The notes below the pieces were generated by a model. The model saw nothing but the letters and a program-made list of their open reading frames with translations, searched no databases and was not told the origin of the DNA. Below, piece after piece: positions 19,490 to 27,051 of a stretch of DNA of 64,000 nt. Source of the DNA: Sneathia sanguinegens (GTDB lineage: Bacteria > Fusobacteriota > Fusobacteriia > Fusobacteriales > Leptotrichiaceae); assembly GCF_001517935.1 (NCBI RefSeq), contig NZ_LOQF01000005.1:1-64000 (forward strand). The letters run 5' to 3'. Position 1 is the first letter of the stretch; every line of letters starts with the position of its first letter. Position numbers and translations under genes: made by a program.

Positions 19490-20260
19490 ATGCATTTAAC
19501 AATGTTACAAATTGTTTTAATAGGTCTTTGGACAGGTATATGTTGGACAGGTATGCTACTTGGAACATATACATTTAGATCTATAATTTTAGCAACAGGT
19601 GTGGGAGTAATTTTGGGTGATATCCAAACAGGACTTGCAGTTGGTGCCATATCAGAATTAGCATTTATGGGATTTGGAGTAGGTGCTGGAGGAACAGTTC
19701 CACCTTCACCATTAGGACCTGGAATAGTTGGAGCTTTAATTGCAATAACAACTAAAACTTCACCAGTAGTTGCCTTTACATTATCTATACCTTTTGCAAT
19801 AGCCTTTCAATTTTTACAAACAGCTTTATATGTTGTTATGTCTGGAATTGCTGAAGCAGCAAAAAGAGCTATTCAAGAAGGAAAATTTGCTAAATTTAGA
19901 TTATATTCAAATTCAACATTCATATTATTTTTCGTTTGTGGAACAATTTTAGGTATGTTGTGTGCTGGAGCAAGTTCAACTGTTAAAGTATTAGTTGATG
20001 CACTACCTCCATTAATAGTACATTCATTGAAATTAGCAGGAAACTTATTGCCAGCCATAGGTTTTGCAACAATATTGTCAGTTATGACTAAAAAAGAATT
20101 AATGCCATATATGATAATAGGGTATGTAGCAATTGCTTATCTAGAATTACCTATAATGGCAGTTGCTTTTATAGGGTTGGTAGCAGCAATGTTTTACTTT
20201 TTCAAAAAAGATACTAATGTAAAAAAAGAAGATGCGGGGGAATTCGAAGATGGAATCTAA
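19490..20260 (+). CDS. PTS mannose-family IIC, glycosaminoglycan disaccharide system
   Basis: A 256-residue multi-spanning IIC. The GVGVILGDIQTGLAVGAISE and FMGFGVGAGGTVPPSP segments match the family. It ends with EDGI and overlaps IID by 11 bp, the same junction as in the first PTS set. AGGAGG precedes the ATG. Confidence 0.9.
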   Translation: MHLTMLQIVLIGLWTGICWTGMLLGTYTFRSIILATGVGVILGDIQTGLAVGAISELAFMGFGVGAGGTVPPSPLGPGIVGALIAITTKTSPVVAFTLSIPFAIAFQFLQTALYVVMSGIAEAAKRAIQEGKFAKFRLYSNSTFILFFVCGTILGMLCAGASSTVKVLVDALPPLIVHSLKLAGNLLPAIGFATILSVMTKKELMPYMIIGYVAIAYLELPIMAVAFIGLVAAMFYFFKKDTNVKKEDAGEFEDGI

Positions 20261-21056
20261 TAATAAATTAACAAAAAAAGATTATTTGAATACAACTTTA
20301 AGAGCATATTTATTACAAAATGCTTTTAATTATTCAAATTATCAAGGTGTTGGTTATGCAAATATTTTGTACCCAGCATTAAGAAAAATGTACAAAGATG
20401 ATGAACAACTAAAAAAAGCTTTAATAGACAATATTGAATTTTATAACACAAATCCTCATTTTGTACCATTTGTATCAAATTTACAATTGGTAATGCTTGA
20501 AAATGGAAGACCTATAGAAGAAGGAAGAAGTATGAAAATGGCTCTTATGGGACCTTTAGCAGGTATAGGAGATTCATTGTCACAATTCTTATTAGCACCT
20601 TTATTTTCAACTATATGTGCTACTATGGCCTTACAAGGACATATTTCAGGGCCTATAATTTTCTTACTAGGCTTAAATATAATTTTATTAGTAATAAAAT
20701 TAGTAAGTGGAAATTATGGATATAAATTAGGAACTAATATAATAGAAACTGTTAGTGAAAAAATGAATAAATTTACTTATGCTGCAAGTATAGTTGGTGT
20801 AACAGTTATTAGTGCCTTAGCTACCAAAATGGTAAAATTGTCATTGCCATTTACTTATACTCAAATGATAGAGGGAAAAGAACAAATTGTACAAGTACAA
20901 AAAATGATAGATGGTATAGCACCTGCTTTATTACCAATTTGTTATACAGCTTTAATCTATTATTTACTTAAAAAGAAAAAATGGAATACATATTATTTAG
21001 TAATATTTACAATAGTATTATCAGTAGTTGCAACATTCTTTAAGATATTTGTATAA
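20250..21056 (+). CDS. PTS mannose-family IID, glycosaminoglycan disaccharide system
   Basis: A 268-residue IID with LLQNAFNYSNYQGVGY, FYNTNPHFVPFVSNL and MGPLAGIGDSLSQF. The ATG at 20250 is chosen over an upstream in-frame ATG (20232) because GGGGG at 20236-20240 lies nine bases before it and the MESN start matches the paralogue at 12421. It completes the IIA-ugl-IIB-IIC-IID block; a hairpin follows before the lyase genes. Confidence 0.9.
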   Translation: MESNNKLTKKDYLNTTLRAYLLQNAFNYSNYQGVGYANILYPALRKMYKDDEQLKKALIDNIEFYNTNPHFVPFVSNLQLVMLENGRPIEEGRSMKMALMGPLAGIGDSLSQFLLAPLFSTICATMALQGHISGPIIFLLGLNIILLVIKLVSGNYGYKLGTNIIETVSEKMNKFTYAASIVGVTVISALATKMVKLSLPFTYTQMIEGKEQIVQVQKMIDGIAPALLPICYTALIYYLLKKKKWNTYYLVIFTIVLSVVATFFKIFV

Positions 21057-21060
21057 ATGT

Positions 21061-21088
21061 GAGCTGTAGTTAATACAGCTCATTTTTT
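21061..21088 (+). terminator. Hairpin with T tract inside the glycosaminoglycan operon
   Basis: A perfect 8 bp stem (21061-21068 with 21074-21081), a five-base loop and six T residues. It sits between PTS IID and the heparinase-like gene, only 12 bp before the latter's ATG, and no new promoter is visible. It may reduce, not abolish, expression of the two lyases. Confidence 0.7.
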
Positions 21089-21099
21089 AAAGGAGAATA

Positions 21100-22854
21100 A
21101 TGGACAAATTTAAATTTCAAGCAAAATTAATCATGGAAAATAAGCTGAATTTTATACATCCTTGGGATATGGAAAGATGCGATGAAATATATGATATACC
21201 AAAAGATTGGAATATTAGTCCTAATGGGGATGATGAATGGGTGTATATGAGAAGTAGAATGGGTTATTTTGATGGACTTATTTTGCTTTATGAAGAAACA
21301 AAAGATATTAAATATATCGATAAAATAAAAGAAATAATTTTAGACTTTATTAATCAACATAAAAAATTAAAAAGTGAAAAAAGTACAAGAACCTTAGATT
21401 CAGGTATAAGAATAGTTAATATTTTGAGAATTTTAATATATTTAGAAGATAAGGACCTAGAGTATGATAAAAATATTTTGAAACATTTGTCAGAAACTTG
21501 TACTTATCTATTTTCTAATTATATATCAAAATATGATCAAAGCAATTGGGGCTTTATACAAATGGCTGGAGTATATACTTTTTCTATATATTTTGAAGAA
21601 AATGAAAAGGCTAAAAAAGCTCTTAAATATTTAAAAATGCAATTAAAGACACAGATTTTAGAAGATGGCTTACATTGGGAAAAATCTCTTACTTATCATT
21701 ATCAAATGATAATATATTTGATTTTTATAATATATGTTCAAAAAAGAAAAAATATAAAAAGTAATTTGAATTTTTTCAAAAGTTATCTTAATAAAATGAC
21801 AAAAGCTGCTAAAAAATTACATTATCCTGATAAAACACAAATAAATTTTGGGGATAGTGATGATAATGAAATAGAAAGTATATTAGCTTTAAGTGATTAT
21901 ATTTTATCTAAAGAAAGTGAATATAAGCTTACAGATATTTCAAGCTTATTTATAAAAGAAGCTAAAGTAAAAAAAATGGAAGTAAAAAAAGGGTTAGAAG
22001 AAAGTCTATTTCAACAAAGTGGATATTATCATATAAAAAATGAAGATTTTTCCTTCTCAACTTATTGTACGCCTATGTCTTCTTCGCATACACATATAGA
22101 TTATTTGCATTTTAATTACTATAATAAACAAAAAATATTTGTAGATAGTGGAAGATATACCTATAGAGAAAGTAAACAAAGAAAATATTTAAAAAGTATA
22201 AAAGCCCATAATAGTATATTAATAGATGATAATGAAGTATCTGAAATAAAAGGTTCTTGGGAGTATGAAGGTTATCCTATAATATTTCCTATAACAGTAT
22301 ATTCAACAAAGATAGCTAGAATAGTAAAAACAGCTATATTTGATACGAAAAATCAGGCAGTTATAAAAAGAACCTATATTATATTAAAAGAAAATATTTT
22401 AGTAATAAATCAGGTTTTTTGTAAGGGAAAACATAAAATAAAATTCTTTTATCATCTTTATCCTAATACAGATATTAAAGAAACAAAATCAGGAATTTTA
22501 TTGAATAATGTTGTAAAATTTTTGATAAATTCGTACAATATACAAAATAGTACTTATAGTCCTTACTATAATTGTCTTGTAATAAATAAAGAAATAGTTA
22601 AAGAAGCAGACTTTTTAGATAATTATTTTGAAATTAATGCAATATTGAATAAAGATGTACAAATTAAACAAGTAGCAGTTTATCAAAAAGAAAAAAAGGT
22701 AGAAGATGATATTGCACTTGCATATGAAATTAAAATTCAAGATATTACATATACTATATTTATAAAAAATAAAGAAGTATATAAGGGACAAAAGGTGTTT
22801 CATGTTAAGGGAAGACCTTTTTATGAAGAAATAAAAATTGTTAAAGATAGGTGA
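21100..22854 (+). CDS. Heparinase II/III-family polysaccharide lyase, cytoplasmic
   Basis: A 584-residue lyase without signal peptide. The N-terminal half is an alpha/alpha toroid (WNISPNGDDEWVYMRSR; QSNWGFIQMAGVYTFS). The C-terminal half has the family signature SSSHTHIDYLHFNYY, FVDSGRYTY and KAHNSIL, which carry the metal-binding and active-site His/Tyr residues. It would act on imported or oligomeric unsaturated uronates, in the same operon as PTS and UGL. Substrate (heparin, hyaluronan or chondroitin oligosaccharide) is not decided by sequence. AAAGGAG Shine-Dalgarno. Confidence 0.85.
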   Translation: MDKFKFQAKLIMENKLNFIHPWDMERCDEIYDIPKDWNISPNGDDEWVYMRSRMGYFDGLILLYEETKDIKYIDKIKEIILDFINQHKKLKSEKSTRTLDSGIRIVNILRILIYLEDKDLEYDKNILKHLSETCTYLFSNYISKYDQSNWGFIQMAGVYTFSIYFEENEKAKKALKYLKMQLKTQILEDGLHWEKSLTYHYQMIIYLIFIIYVQKRKNIKSNLNFFKSYLNKMTKAAKKLHYPDKTQINFGDSDDNEIESILALSDYILSKESEYKLTDISSLFIKEAKVKKMEVKKGLEESLFQQSGYYHIKNEDFSFSTYCTPMSSSHTHIDYLHFNYYNKQKIFVDSGRYTYRESKQRKYLKSIKAHNSILIDDNEVSEIKGSWEYEGYPIIFPITVYSTKIARIVKTAIFDTKNQAVIKRTYIILKENILVINQVFCKGKHKIKFFYHLYPNTDIKETKSGILLNNVVKFLINSYNIQNSTYSPYYNCLVINKEIVKEADFLDNYFEINAILNKDVQIKQVAVYQKEKKVEDDIALAYEIKIQDITYTIFIKNKEVYKGQKVFHVKGRPFYEEIKIVKDR

Positions 22855-22858
22855 AATT

Positions 22859-24826
22859 ATGAAAAAATTAGTATTGCTTAGTATGATGCTTGCTACTTTT
22901 AGTATGTCAGCAAATAATAAGGTTATTTTGAATTTAGAAGCTAAGCAAAATGTAGAAAATTTTGTAAAAAAAGATAATTTTGAGAAGATAATAGACCAAT
23001 GGAAGGATATTTTAATAGGTTATAAATATTTTGATAACTCTACGCAAATGAAGGATTTACAAAAAAAACAAGATGAAAAAACCTTAAAAATTTGGAATTC
23101 TTTAAATAAAGAAGAAAATAGAAAATATTTGTGGGAATTTAAAAATTATGATTCAGCAAGTATCACAAAAAGTTATAGAAATATTGAAGTTTTAGCTATC
23201 TCAGTAATGAATCCAAAATCTAAATATTATCTAAATCAAGCTTTACTAAATGATGTAATAGCTGCATTGAATTGGATGAAAGAAAATAGATATAATGAAA
23301 ATTTAAAAGCTGATGGTAATTGGTGGGATTATGAAATAGGTACACCTAGAGCAATTAATGATATTTTTGTTATGCTTTATCCAGTATTAGAAAAAGAGTA
23401 TATAAAAGATTATCTTAAGGTTATAACTCATTTTGTACCAGATGCTAATAAAAATAGAGGAAGTGTAAATCCAAATTTAGTAGTTGAAGCAACTGGGGCA
23501 AATCAAATAGATATTAGTAAGGTGAAGATACTTCAAAGTGCCTTATTGAAGGATGAAAAGGGATTGATTTATGCTAAAAATTGTCTTAATAAGGTATTTC
23601 CTTTTGTAGAAAAAGGAGATGGATTTTATAAAGATGGTTCATTTATACAACATGATAGTGTTGCTTATACTGGAGCATATGGTAATGTTTTAATAGATGG
23701 CTTATCACAATTAATGACTTTGCTTGAAAATACAAAATATAATTTTGGTAAAGCTAATGTTGAAAGAATAGACTTTTGGATAAAGGAAGCTTTTTCACCT
23801 ATAATGTATCAAGGTTTAACTATGAGCATGGTAAAGGGAAGATCTATAACTAGAAAAAAAGTATATTTAAGTTCATCAGAAATAGTAAGAGCAATAATTC
23901 GTTTAGCCTATGTAGAAAATAATGTATATTATAAACAGTTAGCTAAAAGCTATATTCAATCAAATACTTTATATGACTATATTGAAAATTTGAATAGCTA
24001 TAGAGATATATATTTGGCAAAGAAAATAATGCAAGACAAAAAAATTAAGGCCTTAGATTTGAGCGAAAATATTTTGAAATTTTATAAAAATATGGATAGG
24101 GTAGTATATAAAAATAAAAAGAATAATTTTGCTATAGGTCTTAGTATGTCGTCAAATAAAATAAAATATTATGAAGCAATGAATGGAGAAAACGAAAGGG
24201 GTTGGTATACTGGAGATGGAATGTTATACTTATATAATGGTGATATAAGACAATTTAATGATGAATTTTGGTCAACAGTAGATCCTTATAGATTGCCTGG
24301 AATTACAGTAGATAAAGCAAAAAGAGAAGATGCTAGTGGTTCTGTTGAGGCAAAAAATTCTAGTGTAAGTGGCAAGGTTATAAATAATAAAAAAGGTATA
24401 TTTAAAATGCACATTAGTAATTATCTAGGGACTTTGAGCCTTGATAAAAAATGGACAATTTTGAATGATAAAATAAGAATAGAAGCTAAAAATATTAAAT
24501 TTAAAAAAAATAGTATTATAGAAAGTATAATAGAAAATAGAAAATTAAATGATGATACAAATTATATTATTTATATAAATAATAAAGAAATTAATTTAAA
24601 TGAAAATGAACAAAGAAGTTATGCTGATGTCAAAGAAGTTTTATTGAAATCAGATAAGAAAAATGAAACAATAAAATATGTATTTAAAAAACCTCAAAAA
24701 ATATATGTTATGTTGGAAAAAAGATGTAGTCAAAGTGATAAGAAAATAAAAAGAAAGTATTTTACTATGTGGTTAAGACATGAAAAACAAAATGATACTT
24801 TTGAATATGAAATTTACCCACTTTAA
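22859..24826 (+). CDS. Polysaccharide lyase family 8, hyaluronate/chondroitin lyase
   Basis: A 655-residue exported lyase. The start at 22859 gives a clean signal peptide (about 1-18, MKKLVLLSMMLATF, SMSA end) and follows AGGTGA; an upstream in-frame start at 22838 does not. The catalytic residues are visible: Asn215 in ATGANQIDIS, His265 in SFIQHDS and Tyr274 in TGAYG. Their spacings (50 and 9) equal those of Asn349/His399/Tyr408 of pneumococcal hyaluronate lyase. WWDYEIGTPRAIND is also typical. It is shorter than streptococcal enzymes and has no wall anchor, as expected for a periplasmic or secreted Gram-negative form. Last gene of the operon. Confidence 0.92.
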   Translation: MKKLVLLSMMLATFSMSANNKVILNLEAKQNVENFVKKDNFEKIIDQWKDILIGYKYFDNSTQMKDLQKKQDEKTLKIWNSLNKEENRKYLWEFKNYDSASITKSYRNIEVLAISVMNPKSKYYLNQALLNDVIAALNWMKENRYNENLKADGNWWDYEIGTPRAINDIFVMLYPVLEKEYIKDYLKVITHFVPDANKNRGSVNPNLVVEATGANQIDISKVKILQSALLKDEKGLIYAKNCLNKVFPFVEKGDGFYKDGSFIQHDSVAYTGAYGNVLIDGLSQLMTLLENTKYNFGKANVERIDFWIKEAFSPIMYQGLTMSMVKGRSITRKKVYLSSSEIVRAIIRLAYVENNVYYKQLAKSYIQSNTLYDYIENLNSYRDIYLAKKIMQDKKIKALDLSENILKFYKNMDRVVYKNKKNNFAIGLSMSSNKIKYYEAMNGENERGWYTGDGMLYLYNGDIRQFNDEFWSTVDPYRLPGITVDKAKREDASGSVEAKNSSVSGKVINNKKGIFKMHISNYLGTLSLDKKWTILNDKIRIEAKNIKFKKNSIIESIIENRKLNDDTNYIIYINNKEINLNENEQRSYADVKEVLLKSDKKNETIKYVFKKPQKIYVMLEKRCSQSDKKIKRKYFTMWLRHEKQNDTFEYEIYPL

Positions 24827-24833
24827 TTTGTTA

Positions 24834-24861
24834 TTTACAAAAAAAAAATTTCTGCTAAAAT
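24834..24861 (+). promoter_or_regulatory. Promoter of the GntR-family gene
   Basis: TTTACA (24834-24839), 16 bases, TAAAAT (24856-24861) with a TGC extension at 24853-24855, so the regulator can be expressed independently of the lyase operon. Confidence 0.65.
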
Positions 24862-24895
24862 ATATATTGAAATAAGAAAAAGGAAGAATAATTAA

Positions 24896-25618
24896 ATGGT
24901 AAAAAATGCAGCTGTATATTATAGTATTTATCTTGAAATTAAAGATAAAATAGAAGGTGGTAAATTTAAAATAGGTCAAAAATTACCATCAGAAAGAGAG
25001 CTTGAGAAGATTTATTCTGTTAGTAGAACAACTATAAGACAAGCTTTATTAAAGTTGGAAAATAATAATTATATACATAAAATAAGAGGTAGAGGAAATT
25101 TTGTGTCAGAAAATATTATAAAACAAGAACTTAATAATTTTTATAGTTTTAATGATAAAATGATATCTTTAGGTAAAAAGCCTTCCTCAAAATTGATAGA
25201 CTATAAAGTTATAAAATGTACAAAATTTTTTTCTGAATTATTCAAAATACCTGAAAATTCTAATATATATTCAATAAAAAGATTGAGATTAGTAAATGAT
25301 CTTCCAGCAATGTTTGAAAATACTTTTTTGCCAGAATATAGATTTAAAGATTTAGACTTTAAAAAATTAAATAAAACTCCAATGTATGAAATTTTTGAAA
25401 AGGATTATGGGACATTTTTAGAAAAGGCAATAGAAACATTTAAACCTATAAAAATAGAGGAAAAAGAAGAACTTAAATATCTTGAAATACCTAAAGATTC
25501 TATAGCTATGGAAATTATTAGAACCACTTATGAATATGACAGAGTCATAGAATATACTATTTCACATGTTAGAAATAATATGTTTGAGTATACTATAGTT
25601 TTAAATAGATTAGTATAA
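24896..25618 (+). CDS. GntR/HutC-family regulator (NagR-like)
   Basis: A 240-residue regulator. The winged helix at about 5-70 carries GQKLPSERELEKIYSVSRTT and LENNNYIHKIRGRGNFV. The C-terminal UTRA ligand-binding domain (about 90-235) has IYSIKRLRLVNDLPAMFE and the EIIRTTYEYDRVIEYTISHVR core, as in NagR/YvoA sugar-phosphate sensors. The four TGGTA-type palindromes near 5.7 kb and 11.1 kb look like dre sites of this subfamily, so it probably represses agaS-lacD and the first PTS operon (inference). It is separated from the lyase gene by its own promoter. Confidence 0.85.
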   Translation: MVKNAAVYYSIYLEIKDKIEGGKFKIGQKLPSERELEKIYSVSRTTIRQALLKLENNNYIHKIRGRGNFVSENIIKQELNNFYSFNDKMISLGKKPSSKLIDYKVIKCTKFFSELFKIPENSNIYSIKRLRLVNDLPAMFENTFLPEYRFKDLDFKKLNKTPMYEIFEKDYGTFLEKAIETFKPIKIEEKEELKYLEIPKDSIAMEIIRTTYEYDRVIEYTISHVRNNMFEYTIVLNRLV

Positions 25619-25626
25619 AAAAATTC

Positions 25627-25655
25627 TTTACTTTTAAAAAAAAATATATTATAAT
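25627..25655 (+). promoter_or_regulatory. Promoter of the uracil permease leader
   Basis: TTTACT (25627-25632), 17 bases, TATAAT (25650-25655), about 30 bp before a leader peptide ATG. Confidence 0.72.
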
Positions 25656-25685
25656 AAAAAAAGTAAAAAAAAGAGAGGTGGTAAT

Positions 25686-25745
25686 ATGAATATTATAAAA
25701 AAACGTCACAAATATTATTTTACCTCTTTTGTAGTTAAGAAATAA
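25686..25745 (+). CDS. Leader peptide of the uracil permease transcript
   Basis: A 19-codon reading frame (MNIIKKRHKYYFTSFVVKK) with a strong GAGAGGTGG Shine-Dalgarno. Its stop codon lies inside the 5' arm of the following terminator hairpin, so a ribosome finishing it would block the hairpin. The RNA between the leader start and the hairpin is U-rich. This arrangement is like the E. coli pyrBI leader, where slow transcription at low UTP lets the ribosome catch up. Confidence 0.6.
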   Translation: MNIIKKRHKYYFTSFVVKK

Positions 25746-25769
25746 CAATTTTGTTATTTCTTTTTTTTT
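25737..25769 (+). terminator. Attenuator hairpin before the uracil permease
   Basis: A perfect 10 bp stem (25737-25746 with 25753-25762), a six-base loop and nine T residues. It lies about 20 bp before the permease ATG, so it must be read through for expression. It overlaps the leader peptide stop codon. Confidence 0.85.
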
Positions 25770-25788
25770 AGATTTTTAAGGAGGAAGT

Positions 25789-27051
25789 ATGTCAAAAAAA
25801 ATTATTGGAGTTAGCGAAAAAGTTCCAGCAGCACTTTTATTACCTTTAAGTTTACAACATACCTTTGCTATGTTTGGAGCATCGGTGTTAGTACCAATAT
25901 TATTCAATGTAAATCCAAGTATTGTATTATTGATGAATGGAATAGGAACCTTACTTTTTATATTAATCACTAAGGCTAAAGCACCAGCATATTTAGGTTC
26001 AAGTTTTGCATTTATAGGAGTTGGGCAATTAATTATTTCAACTATGGGCTTTAAATATGCAATAGGAGCATTTGCAACTACTGGATTTTTAGGTTGTATT
26101 TTAGCATTTCTAATTTTTAAATTTAAAACGAAATGGATAGATGTTGTTCTACCACCTGCAGCTATGGGAGCAGTTGTTTCATTAATAGGTTTTGAATTAG
26201 CTGGTGTAACAATAAGAGGTGGAAAAATAGGTGCAAATATTTTAACAGAAACAGCTACTAAAGCTGATGTAATAGTATTTTTAATAACTTTATCAACAGC
26301 AATTATAGGTTCTGTATTATTTAGAAAATTCTTTGCAACTATTCCTATATTAATTGCAATAGTAGTCGGGTATATATCAGCATTATTCTTTGGAATGATA
26401 GATTTCACTCCAGTAATAACTTCTAAAATTTTCACAATTCCTCAATTCACAAGTCCAATTTTTTCATTAAAGGCATCATTAATAATGCTACCAGTTTTAT
26501 TAGTTATCACATCAGAACATATAAGTCATCAAGTTGTTACAAGTAATATAATAGGAACTAATTTATTAGAAGAACCAGGATTACATAGAAGTATTTTTGC
26601 TGATAATTTTTCAACTATGTTATCAGGTTTAGTTGGGGGTGTACCTACAACTACTTATGGAGAAAATATAGGTGTAATGGCAATAACTAAAGTTTATTCA
26701 GTTTATGTAATAGCAGGAGCTGCAATAATATCAATATGTATGGCATTTATAGGGCCTATTAATATGCTAATACAAACTATACCTGGAAATGTTATAGGGG
26801 GAGTAACATTTTTATTATATGGTATGATAGGGACATCAGGAATTAGATTATTAGTTGATCAAAAAGTTGATTATTCAAAGACAAGAAATTTAATTTTAAC
26901 ATCGGTAGTATTTATATCAGGTTTAAGTGGTTTAGAGCTTAATTTCTTTGGTATTCAATTAAGAGGTATGGTCTTAGCAAGTGTAGTAGCAGTTGTGATA
27001 AGCTTAATCTTCTATGTACTTGAAAAATTAAATTTAACAAATGGAAATTAA
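25789..27051 (+). CDS. uraA: Uracil/xanthine permease (NCS2 family)
   Basis: A 420-residue inner-membrane symporter with about 14 hydrophobic segments. LSLQHTFAMFGASVLVPIL, YLGSSFAFIGV, the SEHISHQVV segment and the GGVPTTTYGENIGVMA signature place it in the UraA branch of NCS2, which imports uracil with protons. AAGGAGG precedes the ATG. The leader peptide and attenuator upstream suggest control by the pyrimidine nucleotide pool. Terminated by a hairpin. Confidence 0.92.
   Translation: MSKKIIGVSEKVPAALLLPLSLQHTFAMFGASVLVPILFNVNPSIVLLMNGIGTLLFILITKAKAPAYLGSSFAFIGVGQLIISTMGFKYAIGAFATTGFLGCILAFLIFKFKTKWIDVVLPPAAMGAVVSLIGFELAGVTIRGGKIGANILTETATKADVIVFLITLSTAIIGSVLFRKFFATIPILIAIVVGYISALFFGMIDFTPVITSKIFTIPQFTSPIFSLKASLIMLPVLLVITSEHISHQVVTSNIIGTNLLEEPGLHRSIFADNFSTMLSGLVGGVPTTTYGENIGVMAITKVYSVYVIAGAAIISICMAFIGPINMLIQTIPGNVIGGVTFLLYGMIGTSGIRLLVDQKVDYSKTRNLILTSVVFISGLSGLELNFFGIQLRGMVLASVVAVVISLIFYVLEKLNLTNGN

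Follow-up and report, generated by a model that had tools for sequence, protein, structure and literature searches.

What controls the import of uracil in Sneathia sanguinegens? The question is raised by a 64,000-nucleotide stretch of its genome (contig NZ_LOQF01000005.1, positions 1 to 64,000, assembly GCF_001517935.1; "the window" below), where a very short reading frame runs into an intrinsic terminator directly ahead of uraA, the gene for a uracil permease. We consider it likely that this leader is an attenuator of transcription that senses uridine triphosphate (UTP) and acts like that of E. coli pyrBI. Its parts, in window coordinates, are the following.

25627 to 25655, forward strand: promoter, TTTACT (25627-25632), a 17-bp spacer and TATAAT (25650-25655), read from the sequence, with similar boxes in relatives
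25671 to 25687, forward strand: 5' strand of a hairpin predicted to bury the leader's Shine-Dalgarno (SD) sequence
25673 to 25681, forward strand: leader SD, GAGAGGTGG, read from the sequence
25686 to 25745, forward strand: leader reading frame of 19 codons, ATG at 25686, TAA at 25743-25745, MNIIKKRHKYYFTSFVVKK, read from the sequence, in a layout that recurs in relatives
25712 to 25730, forward strand: 3' strand of the SD-burying hairpin, inside the U-rich zone, from the predicted fold
25713 to 25736, forward strand: U-rich zone (62% U), the presumed pause region
25737 to 25769, forward strand: intrinsic terminator, hairpin at 25737-25762 (AAGAAATAACAATTTTGTTATTTCTT) and T-run to 25769, predicted at -9.2 kcal/mol
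25789 to 27051, forward strand: uraA, uracil permease, ATG at 25789 (NCBIfam NF007995; PF00860)

The identity of the permease is secure, with 599 bits against the NCBIfam equivalog "uracil permease" NF007995 (cut-off 477). An initial sequence-only reading had described the consensus promoter, the 19-residue leader with its strong SD and the leader stop codon lying within the 5' arm of the terminator hairpin, all as found here. It had also given the leader RNA as U-rich and the terminator as a perfect 10-bp hairpin with nine T residues before uraA. The perfect hairpin and the nine T (25761-25769) are borne out, but the stem has 11 bp in the predicted structure; the richness in U holds for the last 24 nucleotides before the hairpin, a level that only 0.4% of 24-nucleotide windows in the genome's own coding sequences reach, but not for the first half of the leader, with just 21% U. 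An A-run directly follows the -10 box, and the hairpin begins 51 nucleotides past the leader start codon. Between the T-run and the uraA start there are only 19 nucleotides, too few for a promoter, so that uraA needs readthrough from upstream.

The same layout, with differing sequences, stands before uraA in the sister genome G001 (locus L002), in another genus of the family (L087) and in six Parvimonas-type genomes (L138-L143), which belong to another phylum. The sister's leader also has 19 codons, of different sequence (MIKKKRNKNLLEFFTLYRN), and ends 9 nucleotides ahead of the hairpin; that of the other genus (G020) has 23 codons and ends at the hairpin. Five Parvimonas genomes carry a 41-codon leader with no indels among them, and the sixth, more distant, has a 36-codon leader whose stop lies inside a different hairpin. 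Promoters occupy the same relative place (TTTACA-17-TATAGT in L002, TTTACT-17-TATAAT in Parvimonas). What is conserved is thus an architecture: an SD leads a short frame with a U-rich second half, and a terminator sits at the frame's stop. This answers in part the check originally proposed, conservation of leader peptide and hairpin in related genomes; the peptide sequence is not conserved.

Nor is the layout confined to the permease. Leaders of 64-86 codons, ending inside the hairpin, precede the aspartate transcarbamoylase gene pyrB in Parvimonas, with a hairpin that closely resembles the window's (AGGAAATAAC..GTTATTTCCT). In the order's other main family (f2) a leader frame runs into a terminator at 20 of 26 pyrB loci, 14 of them identified automatically and six by reading; of the six f2 loci without a leader, three lie within an operon, directly behind an apparent carB end, and a fourth is from the single genus with PyrR. 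For carA, a leader is present in genome G050 and at 14 or more of 20 further loci; none was found at upp. Genome G074 has two carA genes (L391 and L392) with a leader at just one, and these copies are perhaps one pyrimidine-specific and one arginine-specific. The idea of pyrBI logic in a permease gene is supported by the features, by the recurrence at pyrB and carA and by the absence of PyrR, but "a permease gene" proved too narrow a description, since uraA seems to be one of several genes in a regulon.

Such recurrence exceeds chance. Among 20 representative leaders, frames stay open to the hairpin beyond shuffles (Fisher P 3e-11, a value that ignores the kinship of the genomes), and the second halves of leaders contain 54% U vs. 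37% in the first halves (Wilcoxon P 7e-5). In 444 kb of the window genome there are 44 gene-like starts with an upstream terminator, and at only one other did an SD-led short frame (69 codons) end there. Rarity elsewhere was judged from sampled stretches of four genomes: layouts with a -10-like box appeared only at pyrB and uraA in Parvimonas G197 and at uraA alone in the sister genome, while those of G050 included pyrB, carA, an apparent secG, a metK leader (probably a riboswitch) and a few weaker frames. Strict rules for SD and distance miss many leaders, and a relaxed rule together with reading by eye was used to recover them.

PyrR is almost entirely missing. It rose above the cut-off in 3 of the 96 genomes of the order, all of genus g14, where the one pyrB locus read has pyrB following pyrR and no leader; there was none in the window genome or its family, and none in the 10 Parvimonas-family genomes tested, six of them Parvimonas-type. 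The claim that no PyrR binding loop is visible also stands: no Rfam family, the PyrR element RF00515 included, reached its gathering score in the 64-kb window, and RF00515 had no match in leader loci L001, L002, L087, L115, L116, L138, L141 and L202. The Rfam search of the leader loci returned only unrelated RNAs and a fluoride riboswitch (RF01734, 47.9 bits) at 1375-1446 on the reverse strand of L002, downstream of uraA in the sister genome.

A further pairing within the leader had been suspected, AGAGGT with a segment downstream, as a cover over the leader SD. It is real and larger, but the AGAGGT lies at 25674-25679, one base from the position first given. In the predicted fold residues 25671-25687 pair with the U-rich segment over 17 bp (-13.9 kcal/mol, z -3.4), and opening the region from SD to start codon would cost 12.3 kcal/mol, compared with 3.6 on average and 8.8 at most for 42 control genes of the window. 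Against shuffles of the leader this burial has p 0.046; for 22 leaders combined Fisher P is 1.6e-8, again with kinship ignored. The SD hairpin and the terminator coexist in the predicted fold, and no structure competes with the terminator. In some of the leaders, burial of the SD may add a second element, one that acts by timing.

How the attenuator would work we infer from these parts. With the hairpin just 51 nucleotides after the start codon a pause of the polymerase is needed, and the U-rich zone would be the obvious place for it. As long as UTP is plentiful, RNA polymerase would pass rapidly through the U-rich second half of the leader; the SD would pair with the U-rich segment, the ribosome would lag, and the terminator hairpin would form and end transcription ahead of uraA. 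Under scarcity of UTP, the polymerase would dwell in the U-rich segment, and the SD would stay unpaired until a ribosome had had time to load, translate the leader and reach the stop codon in the 5' arm, so blocking the hairpin and letting transcription enter uraA. Published work speaks for this reading: the pyrL terminator does not form when coupling across pyrL is tight (PMC5021804), a terminator is repressed by a stop codon lying a few bases ahead of it, and terminators situated within 100 bp of the start of a coding region can act except where pausing couples the ribosome, as happens at the short pyrBI leader (both PMC4824070).

Several observations weigh against a pyrBI-like attenuator. 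The strongest reason for doubt is that PMC13323073, citing Johnson et al. 2020, assigns Fusobacteria and Bacillota, as whole phyla, to the runaway transcribers; with runaway transcription the ribosome may never catch up. Termination as the default agrees with this class, however, and a slowing of the polymerase at low UTP becomes plausible as the switch. An open frame of 16 codons reaching the hairpin, as in the window, would turn up in 34% of dinucleotide shuffles, and by itself the leader is therefore not significant. Gene ends in this genome ordinarily have stops close to terminators (60 genes; median distance 4.5 nucleotides, 22% overlapping), for which reason the stop inside the hairpin was rejected as evidence in itself; significance therefore rests on the recurrence in relatives. 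Some close uraA relatives, those of G002 and the four g11 genomes, have no leader, nor does uraA in the other Parvimonas-family genomes that were read. The leader peptide differs between genera, and was set aside as evidence; within Parvimonas pN/pS (the nonsynonymous to synonymous ratio) of 0.56-0.85 for the uraA leader, and of 1.0 and 2.5 for pyrB leaders, gives little sign of amino-acid selection. A non-conserved peptide is what would be expected if only the act of translation mattered. Finally, the leaders of L002, of Parvimonas uraA and of G050 carA show no SD burial beyond shuffles.

In the four g11 genomes just mentioned (L083-L086), the region between promoter and uraA SD has in common a short inverted repeat, ATTACAGTGAATTCTAAGTAAGACTGTAAT, which would be a different control element.

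Could the leader be simply a tiny gene with its own terminator, through which constant readthrough feeds uraA without regulation? Terminators overlapping stops or just after them are, as noted, ordinary in this genome, and a single open frame says little by itself. The 19-nucleotide gap, which makes uraA dependent on upstream readthrough, and the return of the layout with unrelated peptides at uraA, pyrB and carA and rarely elsewhere nevertheless make this explanation unlikely. Sensing of UTP without translation, by changes in termination efficiency or slippage at the U-run or at initiation, would draw on the A-run just past the -10 box and the long T-run at the terminator; but the initial run is of A, not U, and the strong SDs, the open frames of up to 86 codons and the stops at the hairpin would be left unexplained, so that we think it quite improbable.

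Related Bacillota often carry PyrR elements, and in other Parvimonas-family genomes pyrB is preceded by sub-threshold matches to them. Action of PyrR, of some other RNA-binding protein or of a riboswitch on the leader RNA is very improbable all the same, given that neither the window genome and its family nor Parvimonas has a pyrR above the cut-off, that the leader site has no Rfam match and that the leaders share no sequence beyond their architecture. Slightest of all seem the chances of classical amino-acid attenuation, in which a stalled ribosome would report the charging of transfer RNA for Phe, Tyr or a similar residue. Phe, Tyr, Ile and Leu are indeed frequent in the leaders (the window's has Tyr-Tyr-Phe), but such residues are what U-rich RNA encodes in any case, the genera have no run of codons in common, the terminator has no competing alternative hairpin, and the genes downstream are pyrimidine genes.

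Beyond the UTP-sensing attenuator at uraA, a wider proposal can be put forward, which we hold to be possible but on balance doubtful: leader-peptide attenuators would form a PyrR-independent pyrimidine regulon across the order and Parvimonas, in phyla of the runaway class, and burial of the SD by the U-rich segment would set a UTP-dependent window for ribosome loading, with coupling only at low UTP.

The UraA protein of the window genome and that of its sister cluster with Parvimonas UraA (100/100 support), apart from other family members. The window's UraA is 79-81% identical to the Parvimonas proteins vs. 67-70% to those of its own family, a grouping from which it follows that uraA probably crossed between phyla; the leader perhaps travelled with it. 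Both the window genome (G000) and its sister lack pyrB and carA and keep upp, and imported pyrimidines are therefore probably essential to them.

Upstream of the leader, positions 19490-25618 hold a glycosaminoglycan-type cluster with IIC and IID components of a sorbose/mannose-family phosphotransferase system, a heparinase II/III-like protein, a polysaccharide lyase of family 8 and a GntR/UTRA regulator. The GntR gene, which closes this cluster, was considered as a regulator of uraA and is unlikely to be one.

Pyrimidine control in these organisms appears to use the speed of RNA polymerase and the ribosome, not a repressor or PyrR. If the pyrBI-like reading is true, control of uracil uptake is assigned in a probable pyrimidine auxotroph; and since such attenuators are workable only if the ribosome sometimes catches up, they make conditional coupling directly testable in runaway-class species. 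A search of papers outside the subscription literature brought up no account of pyrimidine attenuation by leader peptides in Fusobacteria or of such a regulon, and the main texts of a premature-terminator survey (PMC2965389) and of an F. nucleatum transcriptome paper (PMC11005410) make no mention of it.

Set beside known systems, the leader shares with trp- and his-type amino-acid attenuators the control of a terminator by a leader peptide, but has neither a competing antiterminator hairpin nor a kept run of control codons. PyrR attenuation in Bacillota (RF00515) also uses premature termination to control genes of these kinds, but requires PyrR and its RNA loop, neither of which was found here. 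The closest resemblance is to E. coli pyrBI with its leader pyrL: both have a leader frame with a strong SD, a U-rich stretch, an intrinsic terminator before a pyrimidine gene and no regulatory protein, and the pyrL SD is also fairly buried (12.7 kcal/mol, p 0.10). The differences from pyrBI lie in the host phylum, in the SD burial described above and in the extension to uraA and carA, the target here being a permease and in relatives pyrB and carA. The leader has 19 codons vs. 44 in pyrL, its stop falls within the 5' arm and not past the hairpin, the core of the hairpin stem is AT-only, and the host belongs to a class in which transcription is considered to outrun the ribosome.
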